Virus record (IMG/VR): IMGVR_UViG_3300014933_000441
Span: 1 to 22,881 of that record
Direction: 5' to 3' (one strand)
DNA length: 22,881 bases
Source: a virus
Under the pieces are notes generated by a model that saw only the letters and a list, made by a program, of their open reading frames with translations, had not been told where the DNA came from and made no database searches. Below are positions 1-22,847 of this stretch, piece after piece; the stretch's first letter is position 1; every line of letters begins with the position of its first letter. The position numbers and the translations under genes are program-made.

Positions 1-34
1 TATGCGGATTATATCCGTAAAATTTTTATACTCG
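1..34 (+). promoter_or_regulatory. Phage promoter with palindromic operator, copy 1
   Basis: The first 34 bases are identical to 14219-14252. The element holds a 13-bp interrupted palindrome CGGATTATATCCG (5-17), a run of A and T, and TATACTCG (27-34), which resembles the Bacteroidota -7 box TAnnTTTG. The palindrome covers the place where a -33 TTTG box would be expected, and no TTTG is present, so activation by a bound protein or a phage-specific factor is inferred. The ATG of the next gene lies only four bases after the -7 box, so the transcript would have almost no leader. Sequence upstream of base 1 is not visible, so a divergent partner cannot be checked. Confidence 0.7.
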
Positions 35-38
35 ACGC

Positions 39-239
39 ATGAGCAATAAAAACCAAAACAAAAAAAATCACGGCGAAGCTGATTTCTATGTCTACAACGA
101 TTCAATCGAATTGAAGAATAAACTCAAAGACATTGCTAAACAAAAAGGATTTTCATACGGATCATATTTGCGGTCGCTGATCATTGATCACGTCAATAAA
201 AATGAAGTTAAGTTGTCTGACGAATTAAAGAAACATTAA
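39..239 (+). CDS. Small ribbon-helix-helix-like DNA-binding protein
   Basis: This 66-residue basic protein has a lysine- and asparagine-rich N-terminus. It is followed by a short strand-like segment (FYVYND, about residues 16-21) and two predicted helices with the spacing of Arc/CopG/MetJ ribbon-helix-helix repressors (about residues 23-34 and 39-53, with a glycine-serine turn between). RHH proteins bind short palindromes as dimers. The gene sits directly behind the palindromic promoter at 1-34, so it is a candidate autoregulator and the candidate factor for all copies of that operator; this is inference. It converges on the portal gene and the two share the four bases TTAA (236-239) as both stop codons. 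The fold call comes from pattern only, and no family name is certain. Confidence 0.6.
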   Translation: MSNKNQNKKNHGEADFYVYNDSIELKNKLKDIAKQKGFSYGSYLRSLIIDHVNKNEVKLSDELKKH

Positions 240-12663: not shown

Positions 12664-14166
12664 TTATGCGCTAAAAGTTTGGAATCCTGATTGAACAGTG
12701 GTTGCAGATATTCTTGCAATGCCTGTTTTCTTGTATTGAAACGATGTGTTGAAACGATTTGGATTTGTGCCATCAACCGCAACAGTTAAGGAAGCAGCCG
12801 AAAATTCAGCATCGGTGATTAAACCATCTGACACAGCTTGTTTGATCAAGTTGTCAAGGATAATCGCTTTCCATTGTTTTGGCTTAATAACATTTACTGA
12901 TGAAACATCATCCTTATCGCCGGCGATTGTTTTACCAACCAAGTAAGTTTCTTCTAAAATGCGATAACGGTAACGCAAATTAAAATCAACCATCAAATCA
13001 CGTCTCCAACGGAACGCTGGAACGATTTCACCATCCGGGTGATAGGTTGTAACCGGATCTTTGATTTGATACTTACTGTTCACTAAATCAACAGTTGAAC
13101 AGCCATTTTTCACAATACGGTCGCGTTCGTTGTAATCTGACATTGCACCAATCGCAACTGGTGTTGGCATATCAACGTAATATTTATTTAATACATCCAA
13201 TTCAGGAGTATTTTGTGCGACTACAGCCCAAGTTGCAGCATCATTAGCTGCGGCTTCCATTGGCAATCCAGTTGAAAGTGGAGCAGGCGAAATGGAGATT
13301 GTTACCTCAGCTGCGCGTGGGTCAGTAAACGATGAAGGATCCTCAGCGACTGAACCAGTTAAGGCAATCAAAGGTTTCATCACTGTACCAACGAATCTTC
13401 CAGTAGGGCTTCCAGATGAAGGAATTCCATTCCATGCTTCTAACGCAGAGCAAATAGTTTCATTTGTACCGTAAGAGTTAATTAACATTGTGTTCCATTT
13501 TGGAGCCATCAATGCTAATGCAGCGGAAATTGAAGGTGTACCTGAACCGGCAGCAGAGTTGTTATTGATGGTGTAAGTAATGTCTGCATTATTACCGTCG
13601 GTGAATACACTAACGGCAATGTCATTGGCGGTTAAGCCTTTCCATTTACTTGTAAGTGTAAGCACGTAATCATTATCTGAAGCTGTAACTGGCGAGCCAA
13701 GAACAGCAGAAATAGCATCGTTTTGCTTTTGTGTAATTTGTGTTGATGTGTCTCCAACTACTACAGAGTAGCTGTAAAACTGTGCATCTAAGCCTTTGCG
13801 ACCTGCAATAACCAATGTGTGTGTGGCGTTTGCTGTTGCTGTACCTGTAGGCGTAACGGTAAGCACTTTAGCGGTTGCTCCAACAGCTTTTGATTGCGGA
13901 TAAAACACCAAAGGAATACCCCCTAAGATAGGCAATGCAATACGCGCAATTAAATAAGCGGGTGAACCATAACCGTAACGGTCGCCAACAGCTTTAAGGC
14001 TTGTTGCTTGCCATTCACTTGTATCTAATGTTGCTTGATTTGCTTCGTTTGCTTCACAAATAACAGCCACACGTTGCGGCAGGTTTGTTGTTAAATTGGA
14101 AAAGTTGCCTGCATCTAATTCGTATCCTATAGTTGAGGCGATTCTTTCTGATCCTACTGCGGCCAT
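12664..14166 (-). CDS. Contractile tail sheath protein
   Basis: This 500-residue protein forms the outer contractile cylinder of the tail. It has an N-terminal helix-strand domain with DRYGYGSPAYLIARIALP (62-79), which matches the 'fG.GS.la.m' motif of Mu gp39-type and other Phage_sheath proteins. A threonine-rich inserted beta domain (about 85-200) follows. The C-terminal domain includes RWRRDLMVDFNLRYRYRILE and KPKQWKAIILDNLIKQAV, the conserved end that contacts neighbouring subunits. It is the first gene of the minus-strand tail operon. It sits head to head with the glycosyltransferase cassette, with a palindromic promoter element in the 91-base gap between the two starts. Confidence 0.92.
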   Translation of the reverse strand: MAAVGSERIASTIGYELDAGNFSNLTTNLPQRVAVICEANEANQATLDTSEWQATSLKAVGDRYGYGSPAYLIARIALPILGGIPLVFYPQSKAVGATAKVLTVTPTGTATANATHTLVIAGRKGLDAQFYSYSVVVGDTSTQITQKQNDAISAVLGSPVTASDNDYVLTLTSKWKGLTANDIAVSVFTDGNNADITYTINNNSAAGSGTPSISAALALMAPKWNTMLINSYGTNETICSALEAWNGIPSSGSPTGRFVGTVMKPLIALTGSVAEDPSSFTDPRAAEVTISISPAPLSTGLPMEAAANDAATWAVVAQNTPELDVLNKYYVDMPTPVAIGAMSDYNERDRIVKNGCSTVDLVNSKYQIKDPVTTYHPDGEIVPAFRWRRDLMVDFNLRYRYRILEETYLVGKTIAGDKDDVSSVNVIKPKQWKAIILDNLIKQAVSDGLITDAEFSAASLTVAVDGTNPNRFNTSFQYKKTGIARISATTVQSGFQTFSA

Positions 14167-14205: not shown

Positions 14206-14235
14206 AACATTTAGAATATATGCGGATTATATCCG
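14206..14235 (-). promoter_or_regulatory. Possible divergent promoter for the tail operon
   Basis: The palindrome at 14223-14235, read on the minus strand, is followed nine bases later by TAAATGTT (14213-14206). The spacing to TA is the same as in the + strand direction and in the copy at 2263-2292. It points at the sheath gene, whose ATG is about 40 bases further on. The -7 match is weaker than on the + side. A single operator could therefore serve two divergent promoters. Confidence 0.35.
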
Positions 14236-14252
14236 TAAAATTTTTATACTCG
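14219..14252 (+). promoter_or_regulatory. Phage promoter with palindromic operator, copy 2
   Basis: All 34 bases are identical to 1-34. CGGATTATATCCG lies at 14223-14235 and TATACTCG at 14245-14252. The start codon of the first glycosyltransferase (14258) is only five bases beyond the -7 box, so the mRNA should be leaderless or nearly so. It drives the + strand cassette 14258-18368. Perfect conservation over 34 bases 14 kb apart, ending just where coding sequence begins, indicates selection on the whole element or recent copying. Confidence 0.75.
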
Positions 14253-14257
14253 GCTCG

Positions 14258-14938
14258 ATGACAAATTTTGGCGTAATTATTCCTTACAGAAATGATAGAC
14301 CTAGATTCTTTGATAATCTAAGGCGCATGTTAGAGGCCCAAACAGTAAAGCCAGCAAGAGAAGTATTAATAATGGATTATCCGGCAGAGAGTGACGCGAA
14401 AGATATTACTCAGCGGTACAGGAGAGGCTACGATATGTTGCGAGGACTTGGGCTCGATGTAATATTTTTTATGGAGGTGGACGATTGGTATTCGCCAAAG
14501 TACTTTGAGTTTATGCTTGCAAGTTGGGAGAAAAATAATCGTCCTGAAATTTTTGGCACCTCATACACATTTTATTATCACATTAAATTATTTGCTTACT
14601 ACCGCATGGGCCATTACGAGAGAAGCAGCGCAATGAGCACGATGATTTTGCCTGATCTAAATATTAATTGGTGCCCGGACCATGAGCCATACACTGACTC
14701 TCACTTGTGGACAATGGCAGGATTAAAAGGTGTTACGTTTACGCCAAGTGAACATATCTGCTTGGGTATTAAACACGGTGTTGGAAAATTAGGGGGTGGT
14801 AGTCATATTGATGCCCTTCACAGATATTCTTCAGGTACCGGTATTTTGGATGGCAATAAAGATTTCTTAAGATCAACACTGGATCCTGTAAGCTTTGAAT
14901 TTTACTCAAATTATTTTAATCAACAAGAGCATGAATAA
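14258..14938 (+). CDS. Glycosyltransferase, GT-A fold, family 2-like
   Basis: This 226-residue protein starts MTNFGVIIPYRNDRPRFFDN, the usual first strand and turn of GT-A nucleotide-sugar binding. An acidic EVDDWY motif follows (73-78), in the place of the metal-binding DxD. Then comes a catalytic-domain region ending with HICLGIKHGVGKLGGGSH, a pattern seen in phage and Bacteroidota GT-like proteins. I start it at 14258, because an in-frame ATG at 14195 would lie upstream of the promoter element. It should transfer a sugar to an unknown acceptor. It is the first gene of the cassette and overlaps the next gene by eight bases. Confidence 0.7.
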   Translation: MTNFGVIIPYRNDRPRFFDNLRRMLEAQTVKPAREVLIMDYPAESDAKDITQRYRRGYDMLRGLGLDVIFFMEVDDWYSPKYFEFMLASWEKNNRPEIFGTSYTFYYHIKLFAYYRMGHYERSSAMSTMILPDLNINWCPDHEPYTDSHLWTMAGLKGVTFTPSEHICLGIKHGVGKLGGGSHIDALHRYSSGTGILDGNKDFLRSTLDPVSFEFYSNYFNQQEHE

Positions 14939-15359
14939 AAGAAAAAAAACAAACCTGTATAAATTAACTCCTGAAGCAGACAAGATGTTAATTCAACTTT
15001 CAAAGGAATTAGGACAATTCCAAAGGAAAGATAAACACGGCAATCTTATGTTTCGTAAGGTAACCGAATTTGTTGGCACAAAGAATGTTCTTCTGGGTAG
15101 TAGAAACAAACTTGATAGTTACACCAAAGAATATAAAGAAATAAAACAGCCAATTCTTGTCAACCATTTAGTAGAGCTGCGCGAGATTTATCAAAAGGAT
15201 GGTCAAGTTGGTGTGGACATTTATGCTAAGTTTTTTAAAGACATTCTTGAAGCCGAAGCTCAGGAGCAACAAAAAGTAAGCGACGAGGAATACCTGAAGA
15301 AAAAAGCGGAGCTAAAAGAACAAGTGAAAGGTATTATTGCTGACAATCAAATCGTATAG
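14931..15359 (+). CDS. Unknown lysine-rich helical protein
   Basis: I do not recognise this protein. With the start at 14931 it has 142 residues; the more upstream ATG at 14895 would put 44 bases inside the preceding gene. It begins MNKRKKTNLYKLTPEADKML and has the segment FQRKDKHGNLMFRKVTEFVG. It then becomes strongly helical and charged (about residues 85-135, with EAEAQEQQKVSDEEYLKKKA), so a coiled coil is likely. There is no signal peptide or membrane segment. It lies between two glycosyltransferase genes in one operon with short overlaps, so it may act in the same pathway or be a virion or DNA-associated protein. Confidence 0.55.
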   Translation: MNKRKKTNLYKLTPEADKMLIQLSKELGQFQRKDKHGNLMFRKVTEFVGTKNVLLGSRNKLDSYTKEYKEIKQPILVNHLVELREIYQKDGQVGVDIYAKFFKDILEAEAQEQQKVSDEEYLKKKAELKEQVKGIIADNQIV

Positions 15360-15361
15360 TC

Positions 15362-16054
15362 ATGAAAATATCACTCGTTCACCCCTCCAGATCACGCCCG
15401 GCTATGGCAAAGCGTGCTTACCAAAATTGGATGTCAAAGATTTCAAAAAAACACGAAATTGAGCACATCCTTAGCTTAGACTTTAGCGATCCGCAAAATG
15501 ACGAGTACGAACGCTTTGATAAAATTACAATTGATCATAACACTTGTCTTGTGGAAGCAGTGAATGAAGGCGCGAAAATTGCAACAGGCGACATTCTAAT
15601 TGTTTTGTCTGACGACTTTAATTGCCCCCAAGATTGGGATGATTTAATTGTACAAGCCTTTGGTGACCAAAAATGTAAGTTGCTTAAAGTGTTTGATGGC
15701 ACGCAGCCATGGATAATCACCTTACCAATTATGGACCGCGAATATTACAACTCGCAAGGGTACATGTATTTTCCTGCGTACAAGCATATGTTTGCTGATA
15801 CACACATGAGTCACAAAGGCGATTTAGAAAATAATATTATTTGGAGAAACGATTTAATCTTTCCGCACAATCATTATTCTACCGGTAAGGTTGAAAAGGA
15901 CGAGGTGAATACAAGAGCAGATAATACTTGGGGCCAAGGAGAATTCGTCTATCTATCTCAGGTAAAAATGAATTTCGGTTTGTCGAATGTGAATGTATTT
16001 AATATTCATGAAAATGGCAGTCATCACACACACTGGTTAAGAGCAAAATTATGA
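15362..16054 (+). CDS. Glycosyltransferase-like protein, GT-A fold
   Basis: The 230 residues start MKISLVHPSRSRPAMAKRAY, a family-2-like first strand with an arginine-rich loop. HEIEHILSLDFSD (31-43) and TGDILIVLSDDFNCPQDWDD (75-94) follow, with Asp84-Asp85 in the DxD position. Conserved-looking late segments are LPIMDREYYNSQGYMYFPAY and an aspartate/histidine-rich IFPHNHYSTG. It has no membrane segment and should act in the cytoplasm on an activated sugar. The start is two bases after the stop of the preceding gene, and its end overlaps the next start as ATGA, so translation is coupled within the cassette. Confidence 0.65.
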   Translation: MKISLVHPSRSRPAMAKRAYQNWMSKISKKHEIEHILSLDFSDPQNDEYERFDKITIDHNTCLVEAVNEGAKIATGDILIVLSDDFNCPQDWDDLIVQAFGDQKCKLLKVFDGTQPWIITLPIMDREYYNSQGYMYFPAYKHMFADTHMSHKGDLENNIIWRNDLIFPHNHYSTGKVEKDEVNTRADNTWGQGEFVYLSQVKMNFGLSNVNVFNIHENGSHHTHWLRAKL

Positions 16055-16659
16055 TTTTACTATCTATTTTGATTCCGACAATTCCGGAGCGTAAGGTTCA
16101 GTTTTCTGCATTTCATTTTAAAATTATTAATCAAATACACGCTGAAGGCGCAAGAGATAAGGTTGAGTTTTGTGTGTTCAATTCGCCAAAAGGCGCACAT
16201 TCAGTTGGTGAAAAAAGAGATGCGTTGTATAGAATGGCAACAGGTACCTACAGCGTTCAGCTTGACGACGACGACGATGTGCCGGATGATTTTATAAAAG
16301 AAGTGCTAAAAGCAATTGAACAAGATGCCGACTGCATTGGTTATTATGAGCGATGCGTTATGGATGGAACGTATAAGCGTTCCAAAATAAGCATTGATTG
16401 CAAATGCTGGCAAGAGTTTAACGAGCCAATTAACGGCAATCATTATGAGAGAACACCGTTTTTTAAAACGCCAATCAAAACAGAATTATGTCAAAAGGTT
16501 GGCGTTAAAGACATGCGCTTTGCAGAGGATCACGACTTCGCAATTAGGATTTATCCTTACTTGAAAACAGAAACATTTATTGCCAAAGAAATGTATTACT
16601 ATTCAGCCAACACATTAACCCCTCAACAACATAAAGAAAGATATGGAATTACCAATTAA
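16051..16659 (+). CDS. Family 2 glycosyltransferase
   Basis: This is the clearest GT2-type member of the cassette. The 202 residues begin LLSILIPTIPERK. GEKRDALYRMATGTYSVQLD (53-72) leads into five aspartates (72-76), the metal/nucleotide-sugar DxD region. A later RFAEDHDFAIR (156-166) has the acidic pair that normally supplies the catalytic base. It is shorter than many GT2 enzymes, with no C-terminal membrane helix, so it is soluble. The ATG overlaps the upstream stop (ATGA), and its 3' end overlaps the start proposed for the next gene by 17 bases. The acceptor is not known. Confidence 0.8.
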   Translation: MILLSILIPTIPERKVQFSAFHFKIINQIHAEGARDKVEFCVFNSPKGAHSVGEKRDALYRMATGTYSVQLDDDDDVPDDFIKEVLKAIEQDADCIGYYERCVMDGTYKRSKISIDCKCWQEFNEPINGNHYERTPFFKTPIKTELCQKVGVKDMRFAEDHDFAIRIYPYLKTETFIAKEMYYYSANTLTPQQHKERYGITN

Positions 16660-17500
16660 ATACGTTATAATCAATTCAGGACTTAACATGTCAGACATCC
16701 AACCTCAACCAAAAACCATTTTAAAAACCATCCATAATGCTGGTTTTTTCTCTTGCTGCACCATCAGGCTTTTAGACATAATTGCCTATTACAACGAAAA
16801 CGGAAAACTACCTGACGAGGTAGATAGCACTGAGCAGTTCCTGCACTATAAAACAAAACCGGGCGATAATGTTATTCCTTTTTTCTTCCATGAAGAAACT
16901 GAAAAATACATGAAGCTGGATGTGCCGGTACCGGTTAAGGTTCGCTTTGATTGCATGGCCATTCAGTTTGATGCATACAAAAATTTGGACTTTGAAGCCA
17001 TCACGCCTTTCGTTAAAAAATACTTTGAGCCATCTATTCCAGTGTGTGAATCGCTTTGGAACTTGGAGGACAAATACAAACTTGATTTTGCAAACCTATG
17101 CTCTGTTTTTTATCGCGGAAACGACAAGGTTACCGAAATGAAGGTTGCTTCTTACGATATGTTTATTGAAAAAGCAAAGGAAATTAAAGCTGCCAATCCT
17201 GAGATCAGATTCTTGGTTCAGCCTGATGAGAAAGAATTTTTAGAAGCATTTAAAAGGGTGTTTCCTGATTCAATTTACTTCACCGAAACGCCGATGCTAA
17301 ATAAAATGATGAGCGCCATGTTTTTTGAAATACCTGTGGAGCAACGAGGCGAGTACGGCCGTAATTTTTACGCTGCCGTTCTCTGCCTTTCAAGATGTAG
17401 CCATGTAATTACACACAGCGGTAACGGTGCGCTTTGGCTTGCTCTATACCGTGGCCATGCTGATAATATTCACCAAGTATTTAACGACCAATGGCTTTAA
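16643..17500 (+). CDS. Fucosyltransferase-like Rossmann-fold protein
   Basis: This 285-residue protein has an N-terminal signature NAGFFSCCTIRLLDIIAYYN (32-51), with the VDSTEQFLHYK block after it. A later half with VFYRGNDKVTE (155-165) and RFLVQPDEKEFLEAFKRVFP (189-208) follows, and then CSHVITHSGNGALWLALYRG (252-271). The 'RG.DK..E' loop and a serine/glycine-rich C-terminal nucleotide loop resemble GT-B type fucosyltransferases of the GT11/GT23/O-fucosyltransferase group. That assignment is tentative. The ATG at 16643 overlaps the previous gene by 17 bases; an in-frame ATG at 16688 preceded by AGGA is a good alternative, giving 270 residues. It overlaps the next gene by ten bases. Confidence 0.5.
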   Translation: MELPIKYVIINSGLNMSDIQPQPKTILKTIHNAGFFSCCTIRLLDIIAYYNENGKLPDEVDSTEQFLHYKTKPGDNVIPFFFHEETEKYMKLDVPVPVKVRFDCMAIQFDAYKNLDFEAITPFVKKYFEPSIPVCESLWNLEDKYKLDFANLCSVFYRGNDKVTEMKVASYDMFIEKAKEIKAANPEIRFLVQPDEKEFLEAFKRVFPDSIYFTETPMLNKMMSAMFFEIPVEQRGEYGRNFYAAVLCLSRCSHVITHSGNGALWLALYRGHADNIHQVFNDQWL

Positions 17501-18243
17501 AACTCGCAGCAATTTATAATGTGTATGATGGCATTGAGCTGCTTCCATATTCAATTAATTCGATAAAGGACTTTGTCGATGAAATAATTATTGTTTACCA
17601 AAACGAAAGCAACTTCGGCGAAAAAAAGGATACGCTTAATGAGCTTGCTGAAGTAATTTCAAGGCTTGGTGTTTTAAAAAAAATATCCTTAAAGCTTTAC
17701 GAGCCTGATCCTTCTTTATTGGGTCACATGAATGAAACGAATAAACGGAACATTGGCATCCAACAGGCAAAGAACAAAAACTGCTCTCATTTTCTGTTGA
17801 TGGATTGCGACGAAATATATTTTAGTTTTGCCAATGCCTTGTTTCAATATTTAAAGTCAGGCAAGGAAGGATCCGCGTGTGAGATTTACACTTATTTTAA
17901 AAAGCCAACCTTAAGACTAAAGTCCGTTGACAATTACTTTGTGCCTTTCATTCACAAACTTAATCCGGACACAATAACCGGAGCAGATAAATATCCTTAT
18001 TATGTTGACCCAACGCGAAGGATTAACTGTAGCGATGTCGCTTTAATTAATGAACCAATGCATCATTTTAGTTGGGTGAGGAAAGACATTGAAATGAAGG
18101 TGCGTAACTCAACAGCGAAGCACAATATACTTCAATCAAATTTACTAAATGACTACAACAAGGACATTGGCGCGGGATATTTTTTAAAGGATTATAACCA
18201 GGAGCTTGTCGAAGTTGAGAATACCTTTTATATCAAGGTGTAA
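17491..18243 (+). CDS. Glycosyltransferase-like protein, GT-A fold
   Basis: The 250 residues have an N-terminal strand LKLAAIYNVYDG, then SIKDFVDEIIIVYQNESNFG. A central NKRNIGIQQAKNKNCSHFLL (84-103) is followed by MDCDEIYF (104-111), in which Asp105-Cys-Asp107-Glu108 forms the DxD motif. The later HHFSWVRKDIEMKVRNSTAK segment is common in GT2/GT17-like enzymes that act on peptide- or lipid-linked glycans. It is the last protein gene of the cassette; the tRNA follows 51 bases on without a recognisable promoter of its own. There is no signal peptide. The substrate is unknown. Confidence 0.7.
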   Translation: MALKLAAIYNVYDGIELLPYSINSIKDFVDEIIIVYQNESNFGEKKDTLNELAEVISRLGVLKKISLKLYEPDPSLLGHMNETNKRNIGIQQAKNKNCSHFLLMDCDEIYFSFANALFQYLKSGKEGSACEIYTYFKKPTLRLKSVDNYFVPFIHKLNPDTITGADKYPYYVDPTRRINCSDVALINEPMHHFSWVRKDIEMKVRNSTAKHNILQSNLLNDYNKDIGAGYFLKDYNQELVEVENTFYIKV

Positions 18244-18294: not shown

Positions 18295-18368
18295 CGCGGA
18301 GTGGAGCAGATGGTTAGCTCGTATGACTCATGATCATAAGGTCGCTGGTTCGAGTCCAGTCTCCGCAA
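18295..18368 (+). tRNA. tRNA-Met (CAT), initiator-like
   Basis: A full cloverleaf can be folded. The acceptor is CGCGGAG/CTCCGCA, with a C1-A72 mismatch at the end. The D stem is GAGC/GCTC (18304-18307, 18317-18320) and the anticodon stem TATGA/TCATA with loop CTCATGA (anticodon CAT at 18329-18331). The variable loop is AGGTC, the T arm GCTGG-TTCGAGT-CCAGT, and the discriminator A. The C1-A72 mismatch and the A11-T24 pair are hallmarks of bacterial initiator tRNA, but the three G:C pairs of the anticodon stem are missing. CCA is not encoded. It probably comes off the glycosyltransferase transcript by processing, since a terminator follows at 18416. Confidence 0.93.
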
Positions 18369-18415
18369 CGAAAGACGAACACGCTAGGGGACGCTCACAG
18401 GTGCAATCGCAAATT

Positions 18416-18530: not shown

Positions 18531-18911
18531 ATGAAAAAAACAATTGCCATCTGTGTGCCATTCCTAGTGGGAATGGCATTCAGCGTTGCAGCCAACACTC
18601 GAACGGGAAAGCCTCACTTTGCCACGGAGTTAGCTGTATCGAAAACACAAAACGAAGTGGTTAACGTTGCTTTTCCTTCAATGGAAATGGTATTCGTTGA
18701 CAATGCAAGTGAGGTTGTAAATTACATTCCTTTCATTTTGATTATGCCGGTTACAATCGTAACTAAGGCATTTGAGGCTGAATGCCGAACGGTCGTCTGG
18801 CAGGAATGTTCTTATAATCTAATTGACAACTCTAAAACAAAGCCAATTTACCTCATCAATAGAGACATTAGGCAGTTAACAGAGAGTGCGCTGATTCGCT
18901 CAGTATGTTAG
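18531..18911 (+). CDS. Small exported protein, possible moron
   Basis: Starting at 18531, the 126 residues begin with a Sec signal peptide: MKKT, a hydrophobic core of about 15 residues, then SVAA before a likely cleavage near residue 22. An upstream in-frame ATG at 18468 would overlap the promoter and spoil the signal peptide. The mature part has a hydrophobic stretch (YIPFILIMPVTIV), two or three cysteines (CRTVVWQEC and a terminal C), and no recognised domain. It lies between phage gene blocks but has its own promoter and terminator and the opposite orientation to terminase. That is the plan of a moron expressed from a prophage. The function is unknown; surface modification or exclusion of other phages is conceivable. 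Confidence 0.65.
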   Translation: MKKTIAICVPFLVGMAFSVAANTRTGKPHFATELAVSKTQNEVVNVAFPSMEMVFVDNASEVVNYIPFILIMPVTIVTKAFEAECRTVVWQECSYNLIDNSKTKPIYLINRDIRQLTESALIRSVC

Positions 18912-18963: not shown

Positions 18964-21018
18964 TTATCTCTGCGGCAACCTGCCGTGAATAATCAGGTGG
19001 CAAAAGTCCGGCCATCCATATTCCTTCGTGTCTGCTTTTATCTCGCGGAAAATTCTATTCATCAAAATTTCCTTGCATGCAGAATTATAAATGTCGGTAT
19101 CGAAAAAGTGGTTTTGAGAAGTCGGACTTTTCTTCTGCCAAATAAAATTATCGTCCTTGTCCATCTTTCTTTCCTCAGCTTCGTAATGCGAATAAAATCC
19201 TTCGTGCGAATAAAGGCCATTAGACGGTCGAGGGAAATTCATATAACCAGGAGGTTGCGGTTGTTGAGAATACTTGTCCCACTTCAAACCAATTCTCCTT
19301 GCCAATCGGTCCTTTAATTTGCCAACCTTCAAGATAAATAAATTTGGATGTGTTTGGCCTTGCTTGAAAATTGCGCCGTTGTCCTCGATTGGAACATAAC
19401 GATTCTCTTTATCACCTTTAAGTCCAATGATGGTAAATCTATTTTGACGACTATCAATATATGGCATCACAAAGTGTTCAGCAAACCCGGTATCCAAACC
19501 AGCAATCTGAATTTTCATAATCCTTCCAGTGTCAGTTTTATAATCAGCGCCCAACAGCGCATCCACTACTTTCCAAACACTGTTCGGTTTGCTCATGTCA
19601 TAACTCCACCGCTCCCTGGTCTCCTTGTCGGTATCCATATAAGCATTTTTAAAGGTGCCAATGGACCCGTGTGCAATTGAATACGTCGATCCATTCTCTG
19701 TATGAGCCACGAGCTGCCAATCCAACCTTGCATCATCGTACTGGCTCCCGATCTGATCATTAATATATCTTCCACCCAAGTCACCTGCCCAAGTCAACAG
19801 TACAATTTTGCCATTGCCTTGTTTAATCGATAAACTTTCAGGAATTTGAAACGCATCGTAATGCGTTTCATTATTTCTCAATGCATTTGCCGGAATTGCA
19901 CTCGAACCAGCTTCGTAAGTTTCTCCAAGCACAAGATTTTTGAAGGTTTGCATCTTACTTTCGTCAACAGGCTGCCCAATTGGGTTTGCTTCAAGGTATT
20001 TATACACGTAATCCTGCCAATCAAACATGTAAGTGGGCGCATAAAGACTGGAAATATGATAAGAATAATACCCTTCTTTAACCGGTTCTGCAGTCGGTCG
20101 CCACTCTCCCTTTCTTAGTAACTCATTTTTATTTTTATCGTCGAACTTTCCTCCGCATAAATGACAATGATACTTGACAGTTCCGGGAATTAATTCGCCT
20201 TTTTCTGTCAATTCATAAGTAATTCCACCAATAATTTTGCCGTTTTCATCACGTTTTTCCCACTCTAAGTTGATGTATTGACCGCATCCATCGCAAGGAC
20301 AAGGAATAAAGTACTTTCTCTGGTCCCCCATCAGGTAAACAGGCTCAATATTGCTCGTTTCCTTCCTTTCAGGGGTCGAAATGTAACAAAGCTTCATTTT
20401 TTGTCTGTAAGCCGCGAAACGTTGTTCAATCATTTCAGTTGTTGAGCCTGCTTCTTTGGTCGCTCCTTTCATCGACTCAAAATCATCAATAAAGCCATAT
20501 TGAACAGATCTATTCCTTAAAGTCTTGTGATTTGCGATCCCACCAATCAAATTACCTCCCGGAAACTCCTTTTTACGGTTTGTATCACCCGTTTTCATGT
20601 TTTTAGCGCGCTGCGTGTTGGTTTTTATAAGGTGCCTGATGCCGGAATTGTCAATCATACGGTCAACCTTGGCAATAGATTCATCAACAAGGTCGTCGTG
20701 GCCAATCAAAAATAAAATATTACCGGGGTTTTGAGAAATAATCCAACCAATGGCAGCCTCAATAACGGTTGTCGAGAAGCCGATTTGCGCACCTTTCATC
20801 ACCGCAATGATGCGTGCCGGGTGATCAGGCGCAAAGCAATCTACAATTTCACGTGTATAAGGACTGTTTTTATAGGACAACATCCCCGGAATTGGAGAAA
20901 CATCGCTTGTCATCATGCGATTTGCTTCTGCCCATTCGCTTGGTTTGATGTTCGAAAGCAAAAATTTAGCGCAATCTAGTATCTCGTCAATGACTATGAA
21001 GTCCTCTTCCTCAATCAT
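18964..21018 (-). CDS. terL: Terminase large subunit, GpA type
   Basis: This is the ATP-driven packaging motor and nuclease. The 684 residues follow the lambda GpA plan. The Walker A region is MKGAQIGFSTT (74-84). A Walker B-like YGFIDDFESM follows (174-183). Zinc-binding cysteines lie at CPCDGCG (240-246) and CHLCG (285-289), typical of GpA. Nuclease-domain aspartates lie in AGDLGGR (411-417) and AGLDTGF (506-512). Length is near lambda gpA (641). It starts three bases after the small subunit gene. In lambda the gpW and portal genes follow; here the order is broken by the cassette and the tail operon, which is unusual. No frameshift or missing motif is seen. Confidence 0.96.
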   Translation of the reverse strand: MIEEEDFIVIDEILDCAKFLLSNIKPSEWAEANRMMTSDVSPIPGMLSYKNSPYTREIVDCFAPDHPARIIAVMKGAQIGFSTTVIEAAIGWIISQNPGNILFLIGHDDLVDESIAKVDRMIDNSGIRHLIKTNTQRAKNMKTGDTNRKKEFPGGNLIGGIANHKTLRNRSVQYGFIDDFESMKGATKEAGSTTEMIEQRFAAYRQKMKLCYISTPERKETSNIEPVYLMGDQRKYFIPCPCDGCGQYINLEWEKRDENGKIIGGITYELTEKGELIPGTVKYHCHLCGGKFDDKNKNELLRKGEWRPTAEPVKEGYYSYHISSLYAPTYMFDWQDYVYKYLEANPIGQPVDESKMQTFKNLVLGETYEAGSSAIPANALRNNETHYDAFQIPESLSIKQGNGKIVLLTWAGDLGGRYINDQIGSQYDDARLDWQLVAHTENGSTYSIAHGSIGTFKNAYMDTDKETRERWSYDMSKPNSVWKVVDALLGADYKTDTGRIMKIQIAGLDTGFAEHFVMPYIDSRQNRFTIIGLKGDKENRYVPIEDNGAIFKQGQTHPNLFILKVGKLKDRLARRIGLKWDKYSQQPQPPGYMNFPRPSNGLYSHEGFYSHYEAEERKMDKDDNFIWQKKSPTSQNHFFDTDIYNSACKEILMNRIFREIKADTKEYGWPDFCHLIIHGRLPQR

Positions 21019-21615: not shown

Positions 21616-21699
21616 GTTGCAACACGGAAACGCCCAATTTTAAAGGTGTTGCGGTCGAGTATAAAAATTTGTTGCAACATCTGCAACTTTTTTCGCAAC
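21616..21699. repeat. Cluster of GTTGCAAC palindromes and GTTGC half sites
   Basis: The 12-base sequence TTTGTTGCAACA occurs twice (21613-21624 and 21668-21679, 55 bases apart), each with the perfect palindrome GTTGCAAC. Half sites lie at 21648-21652 (GTTGC) and 21683-21687 and 21695-21699 (GCAAC). The cluster surrounds the terminase promoter and the start of the small subunit gene. It may be an operator array or a packaging (pac/cos-type) recognition site. Confidence 0.5.
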
Positions 21700-21843
21700 A
21701 TGACCCGAAATAAACCCATTGATTGGAATTTTCGCGGCTTCGCATTTATTGCGGCTTTGTGTTTTAACGTCAGGAGTACCTTGACCCCGGGGGTGTGTCC
21801 TTGTCAGTTGTTTACGATAGGCTTGCCTATTGCTTGATACCAT
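21640..21843 (-). CDS. Doubtful small ORF before terminase
   Basis: A 67-codon reading frame (MVSSNRQAYRKQLTRTHPRG...) overlaps the end of the DUF1737-like gene by 40 bases and contains the terminase promoter and half of the GTTGC sites. Its second half (KCEAAKIPINGFISGHVAKK) looks somewhat protein-like, but no family is recognised. The gap between neighbours is otherwise 194 bases, so it may simply be regulatory DNA. Confidence 0.2.
   Translation of the reverse strand: MVSSNRQAYRKQLTRTHPRGQGTPDVKTQSRNKCEAAKIPINGFISGHVAKKVADVATNFYTRPQHL
21656..21687 (-). promoter_or_regulatory. Promoter of the terminase genes
   Basis: On the minus strand GTTG (21687-21684) is followed after 20 bases by TATACTCG (21663-21656), preceded by the same AATTTTTA stretch as the 34-bp repeats. 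It fits a -33/-7 Bacteroidota promoter with the start about 40 bases before the terminase small subunit ATG. The CGGAT palindrome is absent; instead a GTTGCAAC palindrome (21671-21678) lies between the boxes, where a bound protein would block polymerase. So terminase is probably controlled differently from the tail and portal genes. Confidence 0.6.
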
Positions 21844-21983
21844 CGGACTCCAAAGCTAGGTAGATTCGCGGTTGATACGCCACCAATAGGCTGCCAACCT
21901 TTTTGCATAAATACTTTCACTAGCTCTGTTAATGCTGTATGCGAAGATGCCTCAACAATCATGTAATCTGAATACAAAATCAT
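21804..21983 (-). CDS. DUF1737-like small protein
   Basis: This 59-codon gene encodes MILYSDYMIVEASSHTALTE, then LVKVFMQKGWQPIGGVS (21-37) and ends ...RWYQAIGKPIVNN. The pattern 'hydrophobic strand, helix with LxxxVxxxxxxGWQPiGG, strand, YQAi.K' is the DUF1737 fold, common as a small protein of unknown function in bacteria and phages. It lies 36 bases after the T9SS cargo gene on the same strand, so the two may be cotranscribed. Whether it belongs to the phage or to the flanking chromosome is open. Confidence 0.75.
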   Translation of the reverse strand: MILYSDYMIVEASSHTALTELVKVFMQKGWQPIGGVSTANLPSFGVRWYQAIGKPIVNN

Positions 21984-22019: not shown

Positions 22020-22847
22020 TTAATGGATTATTACCATCTTCTTTGCTTCGTTCGTGCCTGAGATGGAATAGAAATAAGTTCCTGAAGGCAAATCAGAATT
22101 GTCTAGCTCCACCGTATTGAAATTAGAATCGATATCGTATCGTTTTAATTCTTTGCCACTGATGTCGGTTACGATTAGCTGAGCTTGTGTGCCTAACGGT
22201 AATTGGTATGGTATAACTGTTTTGTTCTGAGATGGGTTAGGGTATGGATTGGACAGTGTGGACGATTGCTTGTCTAGCTGCGTGGTGTTGGTTGGTAATC
22301 CATTGCCGTTGTTGATTGAACCAATGGCGCCAACCAGAGAGTATATCCTGTGTTCTTTGAGTTGTAGTTTGTTGGTTGAATCCACGTAACAAATTAGCTT
22401 GTAACCGTTGCCGCCTGTGTTGAATGCGCCTAATGTTTTGCACTGGTTAATTGTGAGTAGCAGCGTGCCGTTTTCGCTAACGACATTGGCAATTGTGTTG
22501 TAAGTGGTTGGAGTTGTTGAGTTAACGGACTGAAAAAAAGTAACAGCAAATTCGATATTTGCATCGGTGTTGAAAAGTGAATCTGAAATCAACGAAGGCG
22601 CTTGATAAATTGAATATCCACCCGGAACAGGAATGAACATTGATTTAAAAATGGTGTGATTGGTGTTGTAAAGTTTGATTGTTTTGTTCGCTATGTCTGA
22701 GAAAACATACTTGTATCCGGACTTGGTTAATTTAACGAGAGTTGCTTGAACATTATTTGAGGAAGCAGGATAAGTATTCTCCAAAGTGATTTGAGAATTT
22801 AACTGCAAACTGATCAGAATGCAGATTAGGATTTTTATATTTTTCAT
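22020..22847 (-). CDS. Secreted protein with T9SS type A sorting domain
   Basis: The 275 residues start with a signal peptide (MKNIKILICILISLQLNSQI, core about 4-16). A beta-rich middle without a recognised domain follows. The protein ends in a Por-secretion C-terminal sorting domain of about 75 residues: NPYPNPSQNKTVIPYQLP, then LIVTDISGKELKRYDI, LPSGTYFYSISG and a KKMVIIH end. This is the classic TIGR04183 pattern of type IX secretion in Bacteroidota. The product is therefore translocated and anchored or released at the cell surface. It lies next to the terminase genes on the same strand, and may be phage cargo that alters the host surface or the first host gene beyond the prophage. Confidence 0.88.
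   Translation of the reverse strand: MKNIKILICILISLQLNSQITLENTYPASSNNVQATLVKLTKSGYKYVFSDIANKTIKLYNTNHTIFKSMFIPVPGGYSIYQAPSLISDSLFNTDANIEFAVTFFQSVNSTTPTTYNTIANVVSENGTLLLTINQCKTLGAFNTGGNGYKLICYVDSTNKLQLKEHRIYSLVGAIGSINNGNGLPTNTTQLDKQSSTLSNPYPNPSQNKTVIPYQLPLGTQAQLIVTDISGKELKRYDIDSNFNTVELDNSDLPSGTYFYSISGTNEAKKMVIIH

Follow-up and report, generated by a model that had tools for sequence, protein, structure and literature searches.

To our knowledge, glycosylation of phage virions has so far been shown mainly in a few mycobacteriophages. PMC11256854 reports capsid glycans on phage Che8, and PMC12619734 cites Freeman 2023 for glycans attached to mycobacteriophage capsid and tail tube subunits at their C-termini. 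Phage Corndog carries a methyltransferase and glycosyltransferases (GTs) between its portal and protease genes (PMC4351075). Here we describe a cassette of GT-like genes at positions 14258-18243 of a linear IMG/VR record of 22,881 bp (IMGVR_UViG_3300014933_000441), the whole of which we call the window. The reading that we favor, with somewhat better than even confidence, is that the cassette is a modular locus for the glycosylation of virion proteins, divergent from the tail operon and with a control element between the cassette and the sheath operon.

The locus shares several features with the mycobacteriophage systems. Like Che8 gp108-gp110 and Corndog gp35-gp38, it encodes phage GT2-type enzymes in a small operon, and one of its products, GT4, is homologous to Che8 gp108 (27.6%, E 2e-7; 139 bits with the GT4 family profile), which itself sits in an operon of three GTs. 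Methyltransferases are associated with both, in our case in the cassettes of relatives, and the Corndog genes likewise lie inside the virion gene region. In contrast to the mycobacteriophage systems, the cassettes described here belong to Bacteroidota-type myoviruses and are known from their genes alone, and two of the enzymes, GT1 and GT6, lack a Che8 counterpart. The cassettes also differ in being bookended and swappable, in lying mostly on the strand opposite to the tail operon, and in having a shared control element.

Six genes between the tail sheath and the large terminase

The cassette consists of six consecutive + strand open reading frames (ORFs), each overlapping its neighbor or separated from it by 2 bp, between the genes for the tail sheath and the large terminase (TerL), which lie on the - strand:

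12664-14166 (-): tail sheath gene, left flank of the cassette; homologous to the tail sheath of Flavobacterium columnare phage FCL-2 (44%)
14258-14938 (+): GT1, glycosyltransferase of the GT-A fold, the most constant gene of the cassettes
14934-15359 (+): U2, small protein; a relative lies at the same place in loci L017/L022
15362-16054 (+): GT3, GT2-type glycosyltransferase (PF00535, E 5e-6; PHROG 14945, E 6e-19), matching Streptomyces phage glycosyltransferases
16051-16659 (+): GT4, GT2-type glycosyltransferase (PF00535, E 7e-6; PHROG 14775, E 8e-27), matching Che8 gp108
16643-17500 (+): FT5, putative GT-B or fucosyltransferase-like protein
17491-18243 (+): GT6, candidate GT-A enzyme, usually the last cassette gene
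18964-21018 (-): TerL gene, right flank of the cassette (PF05876, GpA_ATPase, E 2e-46)

GT1 was modeled with AlphaFold from 56 family members, yielding a structure (pLDDT 95.3) with a GT-A fold whose best VIA Z scores, 13-14, are to TarS, SpsA, and TarP. In the acidic metal motif, E73 and D75 are invariant and D76 nearly so; 30 of the 56 family members match PF00535 (best E 4e-10), and in the viral library GT1 resembles a Che8 GT. GT3 and GT4 both exceed the Pfam cut-off for PF00535 (GT2), in addition to their matches to phage GT families. GT6 gave no glycosyltransferase profile match in Pfam or the PDB across 35 family members, yet it is probably a GT-A enzyme because of its DxD-like motif, LLMDCDE, and its fixed place in the cassette; among 74 loci, many of which end early at a contig end, 32 have it downstream of GT1. 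FT5 matched nothing in Pfam, PHROGs, or the PDB, and its structure model is poor (pLDDT 45). The fucosyltransferase-like label comes solely from the motif YRGNDK and from distant relatives in two other cassettes (L020, L045). None of the six proteins has a membrane segment, the highest hydropathy over 19 residues being 1.22.

A first-pass annotation of this stretch had described a five-gene cassette forming a tightly coupled + strand operon between terminase and the tail operon, with four GT-A-like proteins, one fucosyltransferase-like protein, and one protein to which it gave no function. The operon is as described, apart from its gene count of six, and the last of these proteins, U2, indeed has no family in Pfam or PHROGs. 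For three proteins the tally of four GT-A enzymes and one fucosyltransferase has good support, and for the other two it is plausible, because profile or fold evidence covers GT1, GT3, and GT4, whereas motif and context speak for GT6 and FT5.

Presence, absence and exchange of the cassette

What that annotation missed is that the locus is a swap-in cassette, present or absent at its site, in dozens of uncultured phages. To sample relatives independently of GT1, loci were picked by TerL and near-copies were removed, leaving 36 loci with both TerL and sheath. Nineteen of these carry a GT1 cassette between the two genes, which are then separated by 2.8-9.3 kb; the other 17 have no GT1 cassette and a median gap of 129 bp. 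Two of the cassette-less loci, L146 and L151, hold 2.8 and 7.6 kb at the same site, in which the families sought are absent. On a TerL tree of 30 rows, presence and absence require at least eight gains or losses, and four cassette states require 10 changes; well-supported branches alone require five changes for the empty state. In one cassette-less phage (L009, 12146-13972) the sheath exceeds the usual length by about 100 residues and contains, near residue 160, an extra stretch that most other cassette-less phages lack.

Within the cassettes, GT1 is usually first, GT6 is usually last, and the middle genes are exchanged. Type A cassettes (8/19) carry GT3/GT4, while type B cassettes carry families of a GT-like protein (c10), an Asn synthetase, and a hexapeptide acyltransferase; the type B count, 10 of 19, comes from one script, and the tree used a finer split in which some of these are type C. 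Pfam matches among the middle genes of relatives include Asn_synthase, Hexapep, an FkbM-like methyltransferase, and further GT families. This arrangement is like that of bacterial capsule and O-antigen loci, in which constant end genes enclose a variable middle of GTs and modifying enzymes. Unlike those loci, the cassette is phage-borne and its products are soluble, and no flippase- or polymerase-type membrane proteins were seen in it.

An alignment search of IMG/VR with GT1 found at least 95 relatives, whereas none was found in 50,697 phage records, and contigs of about 85,000 cellular species yielded five, all metagenome-assembled and three labeled Bacteroidota. Thus, GT1 belongs essentially to uncultured phages. 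No relatives were found when IMG/VR was searched with GT4 or FT5 as single proteins. In most GT1 loci, GT1 adjoins the sheath gene and is oriented away from it, with TerL at the opposite end, although the cassette of some phages has the same orientation as TerL and sheath, and that of four loci (L044, L058, L078, L092) lies at the portal/g2 boundary instead. A second phage lineage (L074-L093), whose head and tail genes are unrelated, carries GT1, sometimes alone, between the tape-measure region and the head protease and portal genes.

The window itself comes from a contractile-tail phage of Bacteroidota type. Its - strand encodes a late module of portal, baseplate, tape measure, tube, sheath, TerL, and the small terminase (TerS). 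Phage FCL-2 and its relatives (Ficleduovirus) have homologous TerL, portal, sheath, tube, and baseplate proteins; FCL-2 differs in having no GT cassette and in having other genes and the portal after TerL.

A control element shared with the head operon

The cassette is preceded by a short element that recurs elsewhere in the window, including in front of a gene for a small protein resembling ribbon-helix-helix (RHH) regulators:

14219-14252 (+): control element, palindrome GCGGATTATATCCG plus promoter-like AATTTTTATACTCG, between sheath gene and cassette; identical to 1-34
1-34 (+): second copy of the control element, ahead of the RHH-like gene
39-239 (+): RHH-like small protein, proposed regulator of late operons, syntenic with RHH-like genes in relatives
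2279-2293 (no strand): palindrome, third occurrence, ahead of the g2-portal operon
21656-21668 (-): promoter-like ATTTTTATACTCG, an exact match, before the TerS-TerL operon; 15-nt match to the region upstream of the cassette

The 34 nt in front of the cassette stop 5 nt before the GT1 start, and the copy at 1-34 stops 4 nt before the RHH-like ORF. The palindrome CGGATNNTATCCG occurs at three places in the window, all intergenic, with none expected, and the promoter-like half of the element is found again before TerS. Across genomes the sequence of the element varies, but it is repeated inside each genome. When the region upstream of sheath was compared with that upstream of the RHH-like gene, a common element was found in 19 of 26 genomes, as against 5 of 646 mismatched pairs; when the region upstream of GT1 replaced that upstream of sheath, a common stretch was found in 10 of 24 (score of at least 15, where the 99th percentile of mismatched pairs is 14). 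Of the 18 genomes in which the exact stretch is at least 14 nt long, 16 have it in the same polarity, pointing toward the RHH-like gene or the cassette and away from the head protease or sheath gene.

Of the 31 genomes compared (full-length relatives and the window), 27 carry the RHH-like gene at the junction of portal and head protease, on the other strand, and phages that lack a cassette have it as do those that carry one. A profile of 21 syntenic RHH-like proteins matches the RHH proteins AvtR and ORF56 at 3e-4; single proteins stay below the Pfam cut-offs. Since the element recurs in the same genome at the head operon, the cassette is wired alongside late virion operons. Most simply, one control element would front both the head and the tail operon, and the cassette would hold at the latter the position held by the RHH-like gene at the former; we infer that the RHH-like protein may bind this element. 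Two earlier versions of this idea were abandoned or refined. A regulator dedicated to the cassette was dropped, since cassette-less phages carry the RHH-like gene too, and the repeat is not GT1's own, since it stays before the sheath gene when another gene comes first in the cassette or when there is no cassette.

Several other features of the window were recorded. The copy of the repeat at 1-34 coincides exactly with the contig start, suggesting a break in the assembly at this point and a record that covers only part of a genome. A sequence similar to the phage promoter-like motif, TTTTTTATACTCA, precedes a small + strand ORF at 18531-18911 with a hydrophobic N-terminus; a search for relatives of this ORF gave none. 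A tRNA-Met (CAT) gene (18295-18369, +) lies with the cassette on one side and TerL on the other, and one other relative has a tRNA-Met adjoining the sheath gene (L018, 7567-7641). The tRNA was considered as a mark of cassette insertion and rejected, a sheath-side tRNA being present in only one other scanned cassette phage (L018, with L117 a second slice of that contig). Upstream of TerS is a small DUF1737 protein (21804-21983, -; E 2.9e-5), and at the contig end is a protein with a type IX secretion C-terminal sorting domain (22020-22847, -; Por_Secre_tail, E 2.6e-9), which is either a phage gene using the type IX secretion system of the host or the host flank of a prophage.

Possible targets of the glycosyltransferases

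The first-pass annotation had named three candidate targets, virion proteins, DNA, and the host surface, and had favored a late, virion-related role from promoter architecture in common with virion genes. The 26-genome comparison strengthens the latter argument. Among the targets, virion proteins gained from the homology of GT4 to a Che8 glycosyltransferase, and the other two lost ground. Two further observations argue for virion glycosylation: GT1 is found in the virion module of two phage architectures that are unrelated (in one at the sheath/TerL or portal sites, in the other between tape measure and head protease), and the cassettes of relatives encode sugar-decorating enzymes.

If virion proteins are the target, the cassette would probably be expressed together with virion assembly, because the same element lies between the RHH-like gene and the head operon. 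GT1, as the proposed initiating enzyme, would place a first sugar from a host nucleotide sugar onto a virion protein in the host cytoplasm, and a short oligosaccharide would then be built on it by GT3, GT4, FT5, and GT6. Because relatives exchange the middle genes (other GTs, FkbM-like methyltransferase, Asn-synthetase-like amidotransferase, hexapeptide acyltransferase), the glycan would differ from phage to phage. Such a coat could benefit the phage by masking the particle or by tuning attachment.

A number of results weigh against this interpretation. The sheath-side element is also present in two cassette-less relatives, G030 (95 nt exact) and G036; because of this, it may be an element of the tail operon that the cassette merely adjoins. 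A search for the acceptor gave no signal: capsid and sheath proteins show no Ser/Thr enrichment or tail extension in cassette carriers, and no difference in length or C-terminus between carriers and five non-carriers. Neither GT1 nor GT6 matches the Che8 enzymes by profile. One relative, G004, has a TET/JBP gene. Finally, the cassette had been placed under the phage promoter: its upstream 34 nt are identical to 1-34, and ATTTTTATACTCG stands before TerS, but a promoter role for the control element is putative.

The TET/JBP gene bears on the alternative that has survived best, although we consider it unlikely: that the enzymes glycosylate modified bases of phage DNA and thereby shield it from restriction. 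Virus-encoded GTs that hypermodify DNA are known (Pyle 2024, as cited in PMC12619734), and GT1 is soluble. However, the TET/JBP oxygenase was found in only one of 28 long relatives (G004, locus L020), where its domain (42029-42391, -) lies more than 20 kb from the cassette, and a thymidylate-synthase-type hydroxymethylase was found in none of the 28, which are linear records of unclear completeness, the window being a 22.9 kb fragment. The cassette is, moreover, wired with virion operons and not with replication genes. The L020 phage may also modify its own DNA.

Changes to the host surface polysaccharide, for superinfection exclusion or serotype conversion, come next and are likewise improbable. 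Temperate phages are known to use GTs in this way (PMC12619734), and the variety of cassette genes is like that of polysaccharide loci. Yet the window cassette encodes no membrane-spanning protein, and the families of its relatives almost none; in contrast to Gtr-type serotype conversion, it has neither a membrane flippase (GtrA) nor membrane-bound GTs. Tyrosine integrases occur in only 4 of the 28 relatives, FCL-2 shows no sign of lysogeny (PMC4541368), and a lysogen would gain little from late expression. Least likely of all is that the cassette is used for takeover or counter-defence by acting, during infection, on a host protein or small molecule, with the virion neighborhood serving only as a tolerant insertion site: accessory genes often lie at operon boundaries, and this boundary takes other cargo too (L146 and L151), but the GT1 family also occurs in virion modules of a second, unrelated lineage, and the FCL-2-like group has the cassette at two virion-operon boundaries (sheath and portal).

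Virion glycosylation is thus the function that we prefer for this locus. A broader proposal, which is tentative and to which we give less than even credence, is that a large group of Bacteroidota-infecting, mostly uncultured phages possesses a "serotype locus": a bookended set of glycan genes that phages acquire, lose, and trade at fixed boundaries of late operons, under RHH control, and that would give varied sugar coats to conserved virions. Phage virion glycosylation is already known; what is new here is the scale and modularity of the locus, a swap-in cassette tied to late operons in a large group of uncultured phages, for which GT1 is a searchable marker. If our interpretation is correct, virions with a sugar coat would be a common trait across a broad group of environmental phages, and cassette exchange would make the coat variable, much like bacterial capsules, with a bearing on adsorption, on evasion of surface or antibody binding, and on phage typing.

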